Below, piece by piece: positions 1-11,096 of a stretch of DNA of 33,538 nucleotides (position 1 is the first letter of the stretch; the number at the start of each line of letters is the position of its first letter). The stretch covers positions 1-33,538 of the forward strand of contig JAKIVT010000009.1 of assembly GCA_022750415.1 (NCBI GenBank), given 5' to 3'. A model generated the notes under the pieces. The model did not search any database. It had not been told where the DNA came from and saw nothing but the letters and a program-made list of their open reading frames with translations. The translations under genes were made by a program, and so were the position numbers. This DNA comes from Thermoplasmata archaeon. GTDB taxonomy: Archaea; Thermoplasmatota; Thermoplasmata; Lutacidiplasmatales; UBA184.

Positions 1-486
1 ATCGGCACGCTTCCGAAGACGTCGGCCGCCAGGGTCTTACTCGTCGGCGATGCGGCCGCCCAGGTGAAGCCGCTCTCCGGAGGGGGAATCTTCACGGGGA
101 TGCGGTGCGCCGAGATCGCCGCGGATGTGGCGGACCGCGCGCTCCGCTCCGGGGACCTTTCGGCGGCCGCGCTCTCGGCCTACGACGAGGCGTGGCACGC
201 CGAGCTCGGGGAGGAGTTCCAGCGCGCGATGTACCTTCGACGACTGTTCGTCCGGCTCTCGGACCGGGACCTCGACCACGTGATCGAGGCGCTGCAGGGC
301 GCCGAGCTGAAGGCGTCCATCGTGGCGTTCGGCGACATCGACTTCCCGTCCCACGTGGCCCGGCAACTTCTCCGTCAGTCGCCGTCGTTGCTGCGCCTCT
401 TCCCCAAGGCCGTCTCGGCATGGCTGGGAGGCGGTCCTGCTTTGGCCCCTGACCTCGAGCGGGGACCACGGCGAACGGCCCAATAG
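1..486 (+). CDS. Geranylgeranyl reductase family protein, C-terminal part (5' end outside window)
   Basis: The frame is open from base 1 and ends at TAG 484-486, so only the last 161 residues are present. The stretch VGDAAAQVKPLSGGGIFTGM matches the FAD-binding GD...GGGI signature of the geranylgeranyl reductase family, followed by the usual R-C-A-E helix. In archaea these flavoproteins saturate the isoprenoid chains of membrane lipids at the membrane face. The distal part (about residues 60-150) is helical, as in the family's C-terminal domain. The 3' end overlaps the convergent gene on the minus strand by 112 bases. Family assignment is good. The exact substrate (digeranylgeranylglycerophospholipid or another polyprenyl compound) cannot be decided from this fragment. 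Confidence 0.85.
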   Translation: MGTLPKTSAARVLLVGDAAAQVKPLSGGGIFTGMRCAEIAADVADRALRSGDLSAAALSAYDEAWHAELGEEFQRAMYLRRLFVRLSDRDLDHVIEALQGAELKASIVAFGDIDFPSHVARQLLRQSPSLLRLFPKAVSAWLGGGPALAPDLERGPRRTAQ

Positions 487-1193
487 CCTCCAACGCCTGC
501 CAATACCAAGGCTCCGGCGAGGACGACCGCGAGGGCGACCGGGAACGGATTCGATCGGACGAGAAGGGCGGTCTCCGGAAGGACTCCGGAGACTCCCAAA
601 CGCGTCGCATTGAGCGAGGAGGGCGTGCCCGGCGCGGCCGTAGCGTTCTCCCACTCGGCGGGCGTGAAGAAGCCACGGGACTCGAGGAGGTACGGTTTCC
701 CTCCGACCACGAACGTGAGGGAGATACGAATCGCATAGGTTCCCTGAGGAGCACCGGACGGAACGCTGACCAAAACTGGGATCGAACCCGGCGAGGAGAA
801 GGCTGGACTCCCCGGGGTGAGGTTGCCGACCAGGATGGAAGCGGGTCCGGGAGGTGGGGGCGGACCGTAGGTTGGGCTGGAGCCCTCTCCGCCGAGAAGC
901 CTCGGGGCTTGGGACGGAATCGGCCCTGTCGCGTTTCCCGGCCAGGCGTTGAACGCGTACAACCCGAGGGTGAGGACTACGCTCGACATCGGGACTCCGA
1001 GCGGGTCGCCCAGAGTGAATGCCACTACGCCGGTACTCGCTGGAGTCAGAGTAGGAACCTCGATGCCCGTGAGAAATTGACCCCACTCCCCGACGGGAAT
1101 CGGGGCGGGGGTCGCCCGGGTCAACGGGAGGGCGCTCGGGAGGACGAGAGCGAGGAGGAGGAGGAGCGCGAGGACGGCGCGCCGGTTACGCAC
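375..1193 (-). CDS. Small membrane-anchored exported protein, third gene of BlaI/M48 cassette
   Basis: Not recognised as a named family. I chose the GTG at 1193 because it overlaps the stop of the upstream peptidase (TAA at 1188-1186) and is followed at once by RNRR and a long Leu/Ala signal or anchor segment (residues 5-23). A longer frame to 1283 lies inside the peptidase gene. The 272-residue product has an exported domain of about 190 residues with several N-x-S/T sites and a Pro-rich loop, a single membrane segment near residues 218-240, and a basic cytoplasmic tail of about 30 residues. This is a type I membrane layout. Translational coupling to the peptidase suggests it is that enzyme's substrate, partner or sensor, which is inference. 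Its 3' end overlaps the convergent reductase gene by 112 bases. Confidence 0.7.
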   Translation of the reverse strand: MRNRRAVLALLLLLALVLPSALPLTRATPAPIPVGEWGQFLTGIEVPTLTPASTGVVAFTLGDPLGVPMSSVVLTLGLYAFNAWPGNATGPIPSQAPRLLGGEGSSPTYGPPPPPGPASILVGNLTPGSPAFSSPGSIPVLVSVPSGAPQGTYAIRISLTFVVGGKPYLLESRGFFTPAEWENATAAPGTPSSLNATRLGVSGVLPETALLVRSNPFPVALAVVLAGALVLAGVGGYWAVRRGPRSRSGAKAGPPPSHAETALGKRRSNDGD

Positions 1194-2085
1194 CGTTTCC
1201 CTCTGCGAACGCGCCGGACTCGGCCATCGCGACGAGGCGGCGGATCCGTTCGAGCGCTTCGTTCCGTCCACGCTCGCCCGCACCGCCGAGGAACGAATCC
1301 GCGCCGACGGGAAATGGCCCCGGTGCTGCGCTCATCGCCTTGTACAGGGCCCGGGCCAAAGCGAGAGGGCGCCGGGTGATGCGGGCCGCCTCGGCGTCCG
1401 CTCGGAACTCTTCGCGGCGGGTCAGGGTGTACGCGAGGTACGCGAGGAGCGGGTCCCAACGCATCATCCGCGAGAGGGTCCGCAGGAATGTAAGGTAACG
1501 GCTGTCGAGCCCGCGGATGTGGCCCAACTCGTGCGCCACGACCGCCTCGACCTCCTCGGGGGTCAGTCTACGCTCAAGACCCTCGGACATCAGGATCACC
1601 TCGCGCCGGTGCGCCACGAACTTCCCTCCCAATTCGAGGAGGGTGAAGGAGAACGCTTCCGGCCGGTCCGAGGGGAACACTAGGAACGAGGTCCAATCCC
1701 GGGGCGCTGGGAGGTTGGGCGGCCATGTTCGCTCCGACGGGTGCAGGAGATGGAGGAAGCCTCGGCCCACGAGCTGGTTCAGTAGAAATGCAACGGCGAA
1801 CACGAGGAAAGCGCCGATTGCCCCCTCGACCCAGAGGATCGCCGCGCTCGGGCGGAACAAGAGGAGCGGATGTTGCGCGAGCGCCACGATGGCGCTCCAG
1901 CCGCCCTGGGTGAGGACCCACGCCAAGGTCGTCGTCGCGAGAAGCGCCCACAACGCGAGAAACGTCGCGGCGAGTCGCAACACCACGGGCGGGGCGGACC
2001 GCCGGAAGGCATACAAGAGGCCGAGCCCCGTGGCCGCCCAGACGACGACCGGGATGTACAACGCCACGAAAAGAGGCGAGGCCAT
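1186..2085 (-). CDS. Membrane M48-family zinc metallopeptidase (BlaR1/HtpX-like)
   Basis: The 299-residue protein has three or four N-terminal hydrophobic segments (about 5-27, 34-57 and 82-105) and then a cytoplasmic-type metallopeptidase domain. The zinc motif HELGH is at 185-189, and the third ligand is probably E226 in EFRAD (226-230), the pattern of M48 enzymes (Ste24/HtpX). A shorter hydrophobic stretch lies near 210-220. It sits 19 bases downstream of a BlaI-like repressor gene. In bacteria BlaI/MecI repressors are paired with the membrane peptidase BlaR1 (M56), which leads to repressor inactivation. Here no penicillin-binding sensor domain is fused, and a separate membrane protein gene follows instead. 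The peptidase call is firm. The signalling role is inferred from context, and general membrane-protein quality control is the alternative. Confidence 0.85.
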   Translation of the reverse strand: MASPLFVALYIPVVVWAATGLGLLYAFRRSAPPVVLRLAATFLALWALLATTTLAWVLTQGGWSAIVALAQHPLLLFRPSAAILWVEGAIGAFLVFAVAFLLNQLVGRGFLHLLHPSERTWPPNLPAPRDWTSFLVFPSDRPEAFSFTLLELGGKFVAHRREVILMSEGLERRLTPEEVEAVVAHELGHIRGLDSRYLTFLRTLSRMMRWDPLLAYLAYTLTRREEFRADAEAARITRRPLALARALYKAMSAAPGPFPVGADSFLGGAGERGRNEALERIRRLVAMAESGAFAEGNGA

Positions 2086-2104
2086 CCCGTCTGCCCTGGG
2101 CCGG

Positions 2105-2461
2105 CTACAGCTTCAGTCGGCGGCGGAGTTCTCGCTCCTCGGCCGGTTTGAGCTTGGCGAGCTCTTGGTTCAGGTGGACGACACCGGAGGGGCCGAAGAG
2201 CGTCACGACCCCCCGCAAGACGTCGCGCAGGTACTCCCGCTCGAAGTTGACGCTCCGGTACAGGTACCGCTCCCCGCCCCGGCAGGTCTCCCGTCGGCGT
2301 CGGACCAAGCCTTTGTCGAACAACCGCCCCAGGCTGGTGGCGACCGTCGTGTACGCGACCCGGACGCCTCGTAGCTTGAGCCGGGCCTGGACGTTCCGCG
2401 CTGGAGCTTCGTCGAGCTCCCGGAGGGCGCGGAGAACCTCGGCTTCCAGTGATCCGATCAT
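2105..2461 (-). CDS. BlaI/MecI/CopY-family winged-helix transcriptional repressor
   Basis: The start is set at ATG 2461, giving 118 residues, the usual length of the family. The frame extends upstream to a GTG at 2512, but that would cover the probable promoter. Residues 1-70 form the winged helix: a LEAEVLRALREL helix, the recognition-helix segment VAYTTVATSLGRLFDKGLV and a basic wing ending in YLYR. Residues 73-118 resemble the BlaI dimerisation helices. The segment VVHLN (94-98) plus the following KPAEERELRR aligns by eye with the MecI region that holds its Asn-Phe scissile bond, here Asn98-Gln99. It is the first gene of a cassette with the M48 peptidase and the small membrane protein, and is expected to bind its own promoter as a dimer. 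The ligand or signal is unknown. Confidence 0.82.
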   Translation of the reverse strand: MIGSLEAEVLRALRELDEAPARNVQARLKLRGVRVAYTTVATSLGRLFDKGLVRRRRETCRGGERYLYRSVNFEREYLRDVLRGVVTLFGPSGVVHLNQELAKLKPAEERELRRRLKL

Positions 2462-2559: not shown

Positions 2560-3957
2560 GTGGCCGACCGCCCCAGCCCCTCGACGATTCTCGACCTGAT
2601 CGGGGAGACGCCCGTCCTCCCCCTCCATCGCGTCGGCAAGGAGCTCGGGTACCGGATCCTCGCCAAACTCGAGTACCTGAACCCGGGGGGCTCGGTCAAG
2701 GACCGGATCGGGACCCGGATGATCGACGAGGCCGAGGCGAAGGGGTGGCTGAAACCCGGCGGGACGATCGTCGAAGCCACAAGCGGCAACACGGGCGTCG
2801 GACTCGCCCTCGTCGCCGCGGTCCGTGGCTACCACTCCGTGTTCGTGCTTCCGGACAAGATGAGCGCGGAGAAGATCCGGCTCCTCCGGGCCTACGGGGC
2901 GCGGGTGGTGGTGACCCCCAGCCAGCTCGCCCCGGACCACCCGATGAGCCACTATTCGGTCGCGAGACGACTCGCGAAGGAGATCCCCGGGGCATACTAC
3001 CCCAACCAGTACGAAAACGCCGGGAACCCGGACGCCCACTACCACACGACGGGCCCGGAGATCTCTCGGCAGGGGGGCGAGACGCTCGGTGCCGTCGTCG
3101 CGACGATCGGGACCGGTGGAACGATCAGCGGAATCGGCCGGTACTTCAAGGAGCACCGCCCGAACGTCCGCATCGTGGCCGTCGACCCGAAGGGGTCGGT
3201 CCTCGGCCACTATTTCCGGACCCACGAACTGACCAAGGTCACCCCGTACCTCGTCGAAGGAATCGGGGAGGACATGATCCCCAAGACCGTCCACTTCCAG
3301 TACATCGACGAGTTCGTCGAGGTGAACGACCGGGAATCGTTCTCCTACGCTCGTCGGCTCGTCCGGGAGGAGGGGCTGTTCGTCGGGGGCTCCTCCGGGG
3401 CGGCGGTCGCGGGCGTCCTCCGGTGGCTCTCGACCCGACCGATCCCGACTGGCTCCACCGTGGTCGTGCTCCTTCCCGACTCCGGCGACCGGTACCTCTC
3501 GAAGTTCTATTCCGATGAGTGGATGCGGGAGAAGGGGCTGCTCGACGACCAGGGCCGCGCGGCAGACCTCGTCCGGGCGAAAGCGGGGGTCCCGTCCCTG
3601 GTCAGCGTCGAACCGACGACGGTCGTACGCGATGCCCTCGAGCTCCTCCGAAAGCACGAGGTCTCCCAGTTGCCGGTCCTCGCGGGGACCGAAAACGTCG
3701 GCAGCGTTACTGAGGAGGAGATTCTCCAGCGGGCGCTTGCCGACGAGACCGTACTGGAGCGGACCGTCTCCTCCCTGCTCGCGCCCCCCTTCCCGGAGGT
3801 CGCCGCCGACGCCCCGCTCGGGGAGCTCCTGGTCCGGCTGAAGGAATCCCGCGCGGTCCTCGTCCGCGAATCGGGCGGGAAGCGACCGGTGGGCCTCCTC
3901 ACCCGCCGGGATGTCTTCGCCTTCCTCTCCCACCCGGAGGAAAGCCATGCGGTTTGA
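2560..3957 (+). CDS. cbs: Cystathionine beta-synthase (PLP domain plus two CBS domains)
   Basis: A 465-residue fold-type II PLP enzyme. Residues 8-325 hold the catalytic core: GGSVKDR with Schiff-base Lys47, the substrate loop TSGNTG (74-79), the phosphate cup GTGGT (184-188), EGIGEDMIP (233-241) and the late PDSGDRYLSKFYSD stretch. These last two look more like cystathionine beta-synthase than a plain cysteine synthase. Residues 345-460 form two CBS domains, usually a regulatory adenosyl-ligand module. There is no haem-binding N-terminal extension. The enzyme condenses serine with homocysteine to give cystathionine in the cytoplasm. The start is GTG 2560, leaderless behind a TATA-like box. 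The gene overlaps the gamma-lyase gene by 11 bases and heads the operon. O-acetylserine-dependent cysteine synthase activity remains possible. Confidence 0.88.
   Translation: MADRPSPSTILDLIGETPVLPLHRVGKELGYRILAKLEYLNPGGSVKDRIGTRMIDEAEAKGWLKPGGTIVEATSGNTGVGLALVAAVRGYHSVFVLPDKMSAEKIRLLRAYGARVVVTPSQLAPDHPMSHYSVARRLAKEIPGAYYPNQYENAGNPDAHYHTTGPEISRQGGETLGAVVATIGTGGTISGIGRYFKEHRPNVRIVAVDPKGSVLGHYFRTHELTKVTPYLVEGIGEDMIPKTVHFQYIDEFVEVNDRESFSYARRLVREEGLFVGGSSGAAVAGVLRWLSTRPIPTGSTVVVLLPDSGDRYLSKFYSDEWMREKGLLDDQGRAADLVRAKAGVPSLVSVEPTTVVRDALELLRKHEVSQLPVLAGTENVGSVTEEEILQRALADETVLERTVSSLLAPPFPEVAADAPLGELLVRLKESRAVLVRESGGKRPVGLLTRRDVFAFLSHPEESHAV
3936..3941 (+). promoter_or_regulatory. Shine-Dalgarno site of the gamma-lyase gene
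   Basis: GGAGGA lies five bases before ATG 3947, inside the end of the CBS gene. It decides the start, because the frame is open further upstream (to 3911). Internal operon genes here can use Shine-Dalgarno sites, whereas first genes look leaderless. Confidence 0.65.
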
Positions 3958-7679: not shown

Positions 7680-10600
7680 GTGGACCGTTTTGTAGTCCCC
7701 CCTCCACTTGGGAGAGGGACGGCGTTTGCCCGTCGCCGACCGTCCGGCCATTGGGTTCTCGGCTTCTTGCTCCTTCTGGTCGTTGTCAGCCTCCTTGCGG
7801 TGCCGGCCTCCCCGTCCGGCGCCCGGGCGGTGGGGATCCCAACCCACTCGGGGGCTCTGACGGCCTCGCATCCCGCCGCGATCACCCATGGCGACCTCGT
7901 GGTCGGGCCCTCGAACTCCCCCTACACGATCAGCCCCGGCTCCGCTTCGTACCAAATCTACTACCAGGGCGGGAACGTCACGGTCCTCCCCGGCGGCCGG
8001 CTCTACATTCTCGACACGGACTTCCAGTTCGTCCAGTACATCGGGACCACGGGTAATATTGCGAGCCGACTGAGCCACATCTACACGTTCAACGTGGGCG
8101 GCAGCGTTTGGTTCCAGACCTCGACCCTCACCACCGACCTCGCCGTCCTGAACGCCTACCCCAAGGTCACCGTCAACGTCACCGCGCCGGGCCAACTGTA
8201 CGTCAACGCGAGCAATCTCCAGTTCGCCGGTTCGGTCTCGGTCTCGGGCCTTGGCGCGGGACTCTGGGTCAACGGTTCCCAAATCCTCCCCAACGGCAAC
8301 AACGTGGCGCTCCCGAACGGAACCGCGGCCACCAACGATAGCCTGTACTCTCCGAGCCTCTCCGTCACGGGCGGCGCCCACCTGACCATCGGGGGGACGG
8401 TTCAGCGCTCGACGTACGCCGACAACTGGACCCTCTCCGGTGCGCCGCAGCCGAACCCGCTCGCCGACTCCGTGGCGACCTCGATCTCCTCCTCTCAACA
8501 GGGGACCTTTTCCGCGTTCACCGCCGCGAATGACCCCGGCTCTCTCCTGATGGACACCTTGTACCATTCCGTCAGCTCCGGGTCGATCGTGATCGGCTAC
8601 AACGCCACGGTCGACGAACAAGCCACGGTCAACTCCGTCACGTTCACCGGCACGACGAACCTCGGCACGATCGCCTATGCCGCGGCCAACACCGAGGTCG
8701 CCGTACCCCTCCCCCTCGCGGTGATCGCCGAGATCAACCAGGTCGGGGTTCCCGCCTTCTTCGCAGCGGCCACGTCCGGTGGGGTCTCCGTCTCTCTGGG
8801 CACCACGAACTCCGTCACTCCCGTGGCCCTCTCCCTCATCCAGATCAGCCTGGTGGCGGGGACGTCGTTCAACATCACGGTGTCCGGATCCGGCAGCACG
8901 CTCACCGTCGCGGATTCGACCCTCGGGATCAACTGGTACCCGGTCCCACCGTTCCCCCGGCCACCGTCGGCTCCCCCGCAGTCGATTCCGTGGCTCTCGA
9001 ACAAGGTCGTCCTGTCCAACGGCGCCCACGCCTTCATTGCGGACCTCGCCACGGCCGTCTCGCCGAATCCCCAGAACGTCACCGACATCTCGGCGATCCT
9101 CCCGGACGCCACGAGCCAGGCCTACCTGTATCGGTGGATGTTCATTCCGGTCTACGGAGCGGGCAACCAGCCGGTCACCGGCGCCTCCGCCGTCGCCTAC
9201 TACGCGTACGACAACAACCAGCTCAACAACGCGAGCACGACCGCGCTCAACAACCTCGCGACCGCCGACCCGGACCTCGCCGGATACGTGACCGCCTGGG
9301 ATGCGTCGCACGGCGCGAGCGCCTACGGCGAAACGAATCCGCTCACCGGAATGGCCTCCCTGCTGCTCCTCGCCGGGAACCTCACCGCGAGCACGCTCCA
9401 GGATGGGCTGTTCCTGGGAACCTACCACGTCGTCGTGACCGTCGCGGGCGGGCGTGCGGGTCCACCGGAGTGGTTCACCGGGTCGGTCTCCCCGTACCCG
9501 ACCGACATGGCCCCCTCGGGAGGGCAGACGGGCGACACGCAGGCCCCCACGGTGTTCCCGCTCTACCGCCCCGCCCTCGGCGCCGCCATCTCGGGCGTCA
9601 CGGTCGGGGTGAAGAACGCGACGGCCAACGACAACGGCACGCTCGCGATCGGCGAATCGACCAATTTCACGGTCACGGTCTCGAACATCGGTACGGGCGC
9701 GGTCGCCTCGTACAACGTGTCGCTGGAAGCGCTCCCGACCAGCTCGCACGGCAATGCGACGGTCCTCGGCAGCCTGAACGCCTCGACCCCGCTCGCCGTC
9801 GGGGCCAACATCAGTTTCCAGTTCCCCTGGGTGGTCAACGAGACGGTCACCGGGATCCCCAATCCCCCGGTGAACCAGACGTTCCTCGTCGTCGTCCTCT
9901 GGAACAAGGGCGTCGCGCCCATCGGCGGCCTCGTGGAAGCTTCGCTCAACCGGACGATCGACCCGTCGTTCATTTCCCTCACCTACAGCGGCCCGGTGGG
10001 TCAGCTGACCCCCGGCGCGAGCTACGTCGGGTCGGTCACGGTCTTGTTCGATGGCAACCAATCGGCGTACCTGAACGTGACCGCGAAGGGGACCGCGGGC
10101 GACTACGCCCTCGCGACCCAGTCGGTCGTCTCGGGGAGGGGGCTCACCCTCGAGCTGTTCATCCCGAGCTCGATGGCGAACGGCCAGTACTCCGTCACCG
10201 TGTCGGCGTACCACCAGGGGCGGACCGTCACCAAGGTCGTCACCGATGAGTTCTCGATCGGGCCGCCGCCCTCCGGCGCCCCGAGCTTCTGGAACCAGAA
10301 GATCCTCGGCCTGATCCCCCTCTGGCTGCTTCTCGTCATTGTCGCGGCCGTCATCGTGGGTCTCGTCTTGTTCCTCGTGGTCGTCCAGCGCGGCGCGAAA
10401 GGGAAGCTCGTCGAGTGCGGCGAGTGTGGCAACCTCATTCCGGAGGACGCCACGACGTGCCCCAAGTGCGGTGCCGAGTTCGAGGCGGACCTCGTCCGGT
10501 GCAGCCGCTGCGGTTCCACGATCCCCGCGAACTCCGAGGTCTGTCCGGAGTGCGCCGCCCAACTGCTCGGGAAGGGCGACCAGGAGACCACCGACCCCGA

Positions 10601-11096
10601 GCGCCAGGGGTACGCTGACTTCGTCGGCCGGTTCCGCGCCGAAGCGAAGAAGGAGCTCGGCGACAACTACGGCGAGGGCGCCTTCTGGGACTGGTGGAAG
10701 CGCCAGTCGACCTACCTCCCGTACAGCCAGTGGAAGCTGCAGCAATCGCAGGGCTCGCGCGCCGGCATGACGGCCCCGCCCGAGGGCCTGGCGGCGGTCG
10801 AGCAGGCGCCTTCCGCGTCGATTCCCCCGCCCACGGCCCCGCCGAAGCGGGGCGGAGGCTCGGGCGGCGGCTCGGCTCCCCCGGCTGCATCTCCCGCCGC
10901 TCGAAGTCCCCCACCGAAGCCGGCGTCCCCGCCCGCCTCCGCCGCGCCGGTCGCCTCGACGCCCGCTCCGATGGCGGCCGCAGCTTCCTCGACCGCCGGC
11001 GGCGGTCAGGCGCCGATGAAGGCGTGCTCGAACTGCAGCAAGGAGATTCCGCCGGAGTACCTCGTCTGTCCGTTCTGCGGCGCGGTCACGCAGTAG
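7680..11096 (+). CDS. Giant membrane-anchored surface protein with cytoplasmic zinc ribbons
   Basis: A 1138-residue protein starting at GTG 7680, leaderless behind a clear TATA box. A hydrophobic signal or anchor segment lies at about 24-42. Residues 60-870 form a Ser/Thr/Asn-rich exported region with many N-x-S/T sites. Residues about 640-745 resemble a CARDB-type Ig-like fold (AIGESTNFTVTVSNIGTG). A membrane segment follows at about 873-903. The cytoplasmic part has two adjacent zinc ribbons (about 913-933, CxxC...CPKC; about 941-958, CSRC...CPEC), a short helical Trp-rich region near 976-1023, a Pro/Ala linker, and a third ribbon at about 1116-1133 (CSNC...CPFC). The layout is consistent with relaying or anchoring between surface and cytoplasm. 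Multi-ribbon membrane proteins of this kind are, as I recall, common in Thermoplasmatota. No enzyme motif is visible and the function is unknown. Confidence 0.8.
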   Translation: MDRFVVPPPLGRGTAFARRRPSGHWVLGFLLLLVVVSLLAVPASPSGARAVGIPTHSGALTASHPAAITHGDLVVGPSNSPYTISPGSASYQIYYQGGNVTVLPGGRLYILDTDFQFVQYIGTTGNIASRLSHIYTFNVGGSVWFQTSTLTTDLAVLNAYPKVTVNVTAPGQLYVNASNLQFAGSVSVSGLGAGLWVNGSQILPNGNNVALPNGTAATNDSLYSPSLSVTGGAHLTIGGTVQRSTYADNWTLSGAPQPNPLADSVATSISSSQQGTFSAFTAANDPGSLLMDTLYHSVSSGSIVIGYNATVDEQATVNSVTFTGTTNLGTIAYAAANTEVAVPLPLAVIAEINQVGVPAFFAAATSGGVSVSLGTTNSVTPVALSLIQISLVAGTSFNITVSGSGSTLTVADSTLGINWYPVPPFPRPPSAPPQSIPWLSNKVVLSNGAHAFIADLATAVSPNPQNVTDISAILPDATSQAYLYRWMFIPVYGAGNQPVTGASAVAYYAYDNNQLNNASTTALNNLATADPDLAGYVTAWDASHGASAYGETNPLTGMASLLLLAGNLTASTLQDGLFLGTYHVVVTVAGGRAGPPEWFTGSVSPYPTDMAPSGGQTGDTQAPTVFPLYRPALGAAISGVTVGVKNATANDNGTLAIGESTNFTVTVSNIGTGAVASYNVSLEALPTSSHGNATVLGSLNASTPLAVGANISFQFPWVVNETVTGIPNPPVNQTFLVVVLWNKGVAPIGGLVEASLNRTIDPSFISLTYSGPVGQLTPGASYVGSVTVLFDGNQSAYLNVTAKGTAGDYALATQSVVSGRGLTLELFIPSSMANGQYSVTVSAYHQGRTVTKVVTDEFSIGPPPSGAPSFWNQKILGLIPLWLLLVIVAAVIVGLVLFLVVVQRGAKGKLVECGECGNLIPEDATTCPKCGAEFEADLVRCSRCGSTIPANSEVCPECAAQLLGKGDQETTDPERQGYADFVGRFRAEAKKELGDNYGEGAFWDWWKRQSTYLPYSQWKLQQSQGSRAGMTAPPEGLAAVEQAPSASIPPPTAPPKRGGGSGGGSAPPAASPAARSPPPKPASPPASAAPVASTPAPMAAAASSTAGGGQAPMKACSNCSKEIPPEYLVCPFCGAVTQ

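Follow-up and report, generated by a model that had tools for sequence, protein, structure and literature searches.

A putative BlaI/BlaR-type proteolytic switch upstream of an apparently older envelope-protein gene in Thermoplasmata archaea

BlaI-BlaR pairs are already known in bacteria. In the BlaI-BlaR1 and MecI-MecR1 systems of Staphylococcus and Bacillus, a winged-helix repressor of the BlaI family is encoded beside a membrane gluzincin. BlaR homologues without a sensor and self-contained BlaI operons have been described as well: the Mycobacterium tuberculosis BlaR homologue is paired with BlaI and described as lacking a sensor domain (PMC9834060), and Clostridium thermocellum BlaI_1845 regulates nothing but its own operon, in which BlaI and BlaR1 are accompanied by two hypothetical genes (PMC8457756). 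For archaeal BlaI-protease pairs, no paper was found in the open-access literature searched. Here, we analyzed a stretch of 33,538 nt (hereafter, the window) from a Thermoplasmata archaeon (contig JAKIVT010000009.1 of a 2.0-Mb genome in 219 contigs), whose nearest named relative at the locus, with 91% peptidase identity, is Thermoplasmata archaeon AcS1-3, a Lutacidiplasmatales genome (PMC9287336). An earlier note had read three of its genes as a split-sensor proteolytic signalling system. Judging from the sequences, what appears to be new is an archaeal hybrid M48/M56 peptidase, its associated dyad, and the apparent capture of an older envelope gene.

The three genes lie on the minus strand, flanked by a divergent cysK-metB-cysS row and a convergent geranylgeranyl/digeranylgeranylglycerophospholipid reductase gene (GGR). 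The first (2105-2461; ATG at 2461-2459) encodes a BlaI/MecI-type winged-helix regulator of 118 aa and is followed, after a gap of 19 nt, by the gene for a 299-aa membrane zinc peptidase (1186-2085). The GTG start of the third gene (375-1193; 272 aa) falls inside the final 8 nt of the peptidase gene (GTGCGTAA; 1186-1193, minus strand), with a purine-rich, RBS-like sequence just 5' of this start/stop overlap. The 3' end of the third gene overlaps the 3' end of GGR (1-486, plus strand; NCBIfam matches below cut-offs for a 140-aa fragment) by 112 bp of convergent coding sequence (375-486), and the overlap is of equal length in many relatives. A functional long C-terminal tail of the third protein was considered and rejected, since this tail is encoded antisense to GGR and relatives with shorter overlaps lack it. 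At the other end, the intergenic region at 2462-2559, containing a TATA-like TTAAAG box (2498-2503), is common to the BlaI operon and to cysK (2560-3957, plus strand), which heads the divergent row and encodes a cysteine synthase-like PLP enzyme with CBS domains (PALP, 2.7e-84; CBS, 4.6e-15). Elsewhere in the window, positions 7680-11096 encode a large, exported-looking protein in which several zinc-ribbon motifs of the CxxC type and a proline-rich stretch come after a membrane helix.

A peptidase orthologue search over 61 genomes of the family placed the gene in genera g1, g2, g5, and g6; 45 of these loci were analyzed, making 46 with the window, from four genera of one Thermoplasmata family of soil archaea related to Lutacidiplasmatales. 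BlaI preceded the peptidase in 45 of the 46, the sole exception beginning at a contig start, with gaps of 3-30 nt across the set, and the third gene was immediately 3' of the peptidase in 44. Of the remaining two loci, one reaches a contig end (L071) and the other carries an insertion of ~2 kb between peptidase and third gene (L042 / L326, G033). The 8-nt overlap was exactly the same in 36 of 44 loci, and the layout recurred in orthologues down to ~50% peptidase identity. Conservation of the layout over four genera rules out chance adjacency of the three genes, which are predicted to form a conserved operon. The same-strand trio with a 19-nt gap and an overlapping start, as first described from the window alone, is thus borne out by its coordinates and its recurrence in orthologues, and the triplet proves to be conserved in related archaea.

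The regulator matched the Penicillinase_R profile at 56.9 bits (cut-off 22.6; E = 3e-15 on a 135-aa reading) across profile positions 1-114 of 115. Since this exceeds the curated cut-off over nearly the whole domain, the BlaI-like winged-helix assignment stands. The gene is the only one of BlaI type found in its genome, and its relatives are 60-99% identical. Each of the 44 sequences has a single cysteine, which belongs to a CRGG/CQGG site of the wing region, and thiol or metal sensing through this invariant residue is possible. In addition, a conserved C-terminal GVVHLN(E/Q)E region is located, as judged by eye only, close to where the Asn101-Phe102 site of S. aureus would fall.

The peptidase passed the M48 profile (42.9 bits; cut-off 20.3) and fell narrowly below that of M56 (28.5 bits; cut-off 31.0), and both profiles matched all 26 aligned members (M56 at E ≤ 0.01). 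In the alignment, H185, E186, and H189 are invariant, and the HELGH zinc-binding/catalytic motif (residues 185-189; 1519-1533, minus strand), D194, and the third-ligand motif E226xxxD230 (1396-1410, minus strand) are invariant or nearly so. The distance of 41 residues from H185 to E226 equals that of H201 to E242 in BlaR1 (numbering from PMC9834060), and an Asp of the peptidase matches BlaR1 Asp210. Approximately three N-terminal membrane helices precede the catalytic domain, a predicted arrangement that also resembles BlaR1. Structural matches to the AlphaFold model were weak, the best being ZMPSTE24 (2ypt, E = 4.7e-4), followed by BlaR1 (8exs, 2.7e-3) and Ste24p (4il3, 2.8e-3), with BlaR1 8exq also among them. 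By its profile matches, the enzyme appears to be an M48/M56 intermediate and not a plain M48 enzyme. Therefore, of the earlier description as a HELGH multi-pass M48 peptidase, the motif, the membrane helices, and the M48 match hold, whereas the plain M48 label does not, as M56 matches too. Neither profile searches nor the model revealed a sensor domain, including the C-terminally fused penicillin-binding kind, and the protein ends soon after its catalytic part, in agreement with what the earlier note had said on this point. The loop after the first helix is positively charged, which suggests that the N-terminus is outside and the catalytic domain in the cytoplasm, as in BlaR1. The loop between helices 2 and 3 is short.

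Like BlaI-BlaR1 and MecI-MecR1, the locus places a BlaI-family winged-helix protein beside a membrane gluzincin, with identical HExxH...ExxxD spacing, and most relatives of the window carry a dyad at the operon's own promoter. It differs from them in its archaeal host, in lacking both the penicillin-sensor domain and the fourth helix after the catalytic domain of BlaR1, in a peptidase that scores higher to M48 than to M56, and in its proposed output, an Ig-fold envelope protein. The operon of C. thermocellum BlaI_1845 is similarly self-contained, being autoregulated there through inverted repeats (PMC8457756), but it is bacterial, its repeats differ in sequence and arrangement, and it contains a gene annotated as BlaR1. 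HtpX and Ste24 (M48) share with the window peptidase their fold, catalytic motifs, and a Pfam M48 match above cut-off, and the closest relatives outside the family are M48/HtpX-like enzymes; in the flanks examined, no BlaI was found beside the bacterial ones. However, the window peptidase is paired with BlaI, and the conserved His-Pro before the RI motif, which is typical of HtpX-type M48 enzymes, is absent from the aligned members.

In the sequences 5' of BlaI, expectation-maximisation recovered an 18-bp dyad, GTACGAAC-nn-GTTCGTaC, with a log-likelihood of 299 against 43-48 for shuffles. It scored ≥14 in 29 of 44 BlaI promoters as compared to 0.02 expected from shuffles, a count that is optimistic because the test reuses a motif fitted to the same promoters; the fixed spacing to the TATA box was not fitted. 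At 29 of the 44 promoters, the dyad lies 15-18 bp 5' of the TATA box, and of the 28 that have a TATA-like box 10-22 bp away, 22 show a spacing of exactly 16 bp. One of the strong sites is that of G034 (GTACGAACCGGTTCGTTC). Exact matches to the degenerate pattern were almost confined to the BlaI promoter in the 35 genomes searched, and the pattern was absent from the BlaI-less loci examined. Weaker dyad-like sites, with 2-3 mismatches, occur elsewhere in the genomes, so other BlaI targets are possible. In M. tuberculosis, BlaI (Rv1846c) has targets elsewhere (blaC and the ATP-synthase region), whereas here near-perfect sites occur almost only at the relatives' own operon promoter. The dyad is located in the intergenic region shared with cysK, and its distance to the presumed cysK TATA box varies, whereas the spacing on the BlaI side is fixed; control of cysK as the main role of BlaI is not favoured for this reason. 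Since the dyad is upstream of the TATA box and not over it, activation is possible instead of repression. The window's own BlaI promoter contains no recognisable dyad (best score with the family model, -2.1; generic dyad scan no better than shuffles), and its three closest relatives lack a clear site as well, so the regulatory step rests on the other relatives. In one locus (L063, G058), a single break near residue 82 interrupts the BlaI frame, with peptidase and dyad intact, reflecting either a pseudogene or an assembly error.

In the third protein, a signal peptide, a beta-sandwich ectodomain, and a single membrane helix near the C-terminus are accompanied by a basic tail, and the model (mean pLDDT 84) likewise shows the signal helix, the sandwich, and the C-terminal membrane helix, as expected of an anchored exported protein. 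It had no match among Pfam, NCBIfam, or PDB sequences, and Foldseek returned weak, generic matches to Ig-like, cohesin, and YcnI domains, i.e., beta-sandwiches. In a class-wide search, the family was found in 164 of 300 Thermoplasmata genomes. In sampled g3 and g7 genomes, the gene is flanked by cysK and GGR, with neither BlaI nor the peptidase; in g4 it adjoins GGR, and in other orders it is often beside GGR or unrelated housekeeping genes. Across many Thermoplasmata orders, members of the family lie next to GGR. Whether or not the pair is present, the motifs GxYxVR...SRGxF and LGVSGxxPE(T/S) can be recognised, and motifs of both the ectodomain and the juxtamembrane part are conserved in lineages that have no peptidase. 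Since the family is class-wide, occurs in pair-less lineages, and retains these motifs, it probably serves some function independent of the peptidase, and it appears to be far older than its link to the BlaI-peptidase pair. In one genome of the window's own genus (G052, L172), the pair is gone and the third gene intact; a decayed BlaI C-terminus (VEHKYLVNVLR...PSGVVHWDEE) remains just upstream of that gene, and GGR groups this genome next to a pair-bearing one. By these traces, the locus is apparently a natural deletion of the BlaI-peptidase switch. The earlier note had named independent occurrence of the third gene's family as grounds against its reading, and the family does occur independently in all of these settings.

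More distant Thermoplasmatota (G447, G442, G415, G264, G486, G436, G426, and G290) also carry BlaI closely followed by a membrane M56/M48 peptidase. These peptidases are mostly ~430-560 aa in length, as opposed to 299 aa here (the copy in G486 spans two frames). Between predicted membrane helices 2 and 3 they carry an extended extra-membrane stretch that the window peptidase lacks, and several exceed the M56 cut-off. No relative of the third gene was found beside these pairs. In G264 and G290, the next same-strand gene after the pair encodes an FtsX/MacB-like permease, and such a partner, varying across lineages, fits an output gene. FtsX/MacB-like permease genes lie beside BlaI-M56/M48 pairs of other Thermoplasmatota lineages at L317, L320, and L325.

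We consider it somewhat better than an even bet (roughly 55%) that an envelope gene already in place has come under the control of a BlaI/BlaR-type proteolytic switch that was inserted upstream of it. BlaI would bind near its own promoter and hold the operon down; the membrane peptidase, with its catalytic site presumably in the cytoplasm, would be activated by a membrane or envelope signal and cleave BlaI, and this cleavage would switch on blaI itself together with the peptidase gene and the third gene, which is presumably coupled to it in translation. The output would be the third gene product, a pre-existing, anchored Ig-fold surface protein. What we infer from this arrangement is repression, cleavage of BlaI, an inducing signal, and the part played by the third protein. 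Some relatives have the third gene but no switch, and G052 preserves a remnant of a lost one. Since the third gene is older and exists without the pair, its product is more likely controlled by the switch than one half of a split sensor.

It seems unlikely to us that the third protein detects an external signal with its ectodomain and uses its membrane helix to activate the sensorless peptidase for cleavage of BlaI. The absence of a sensor domain from the peptidase, the conserved operon coupling, the missing helix 2-3 stretch of the distant pairs, and a partner built of an ectodomain and a single helix would all suit such a receptor, and of the earlier proposal, the conserved operon, the sensorless BlaR-like peptidase, and the anchored exported protein stand. 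The third protein as detached sensor is weakened, however, by the age and independence of its family, its retention in G052 after loss of the pair, its motifs conserved where no peptidase exists, and the permease that takes its place in other lineages; moreover, the sensorless M. tuberculosis BlaR homologue (PMC9834060) suggests that a separate sensor may not be required. A sensor role acquired secondarily is possible, because the helix 2-3 loop is short here and longer in distant pairs. Recruitment of the existing Ig-fold protein as a detached sensor by a sensorless archaeal BlaR-like protease is an improbable outcome in our estimate but, if true, would constitute a two-membrane-protein proteolytic signalling receptor not described before.

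It also seems rather doubtful that the pair simply landed upstream of the third gene, the overlap only securing translation, and that the main targets of BlaI are its own gene or others, e.g., the divergent cysK-metB-cysS row, perhaps by thiol sensing through its invariant cysteine. The order of cysK-metB-cysS and GGR is itself conserved, such that the adjacency could be inherited synteny, and both the single cysteine in 44/44 sequences and the placement of the dyad in the region shared with cysK are consistent with this. However, the dyad keeps a fixed distance only to the BlaI-side TATA box, near-perfect copies are almost unique to that promoter, and the third gene would by its position be co-transcribed regardless of other BlaI targets. 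We regard as very unlikely a quality-control role, in which an HtpX-like M48/M56 peptidase processes or degrades the third protein and BlaI is an ordinary regulator of its level. The M48/HtpX-like enzymes nearest to the family, with no BlaI found nearby, point in that direction; against it, the 3' loop lacks the HtpX-type His-Pro before the RI motif, the layout is BlaR1-like, some of the distant archaeal pairs have a peptidase that is clearly M56, scoring above cut-off, and the third protein is kept in the absence of the protease.

BlaR1 systems guard a murein wall, which is missing in most archaea, and an archaeal version would offer a testable route to the signals of sensorless BlaR proteins. 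The proposed switch, which has a predicted operator and probably just one output, should itself be testable, and it points to a widespread, uncharacterised family of surface proteins in the Thermoplasmata.
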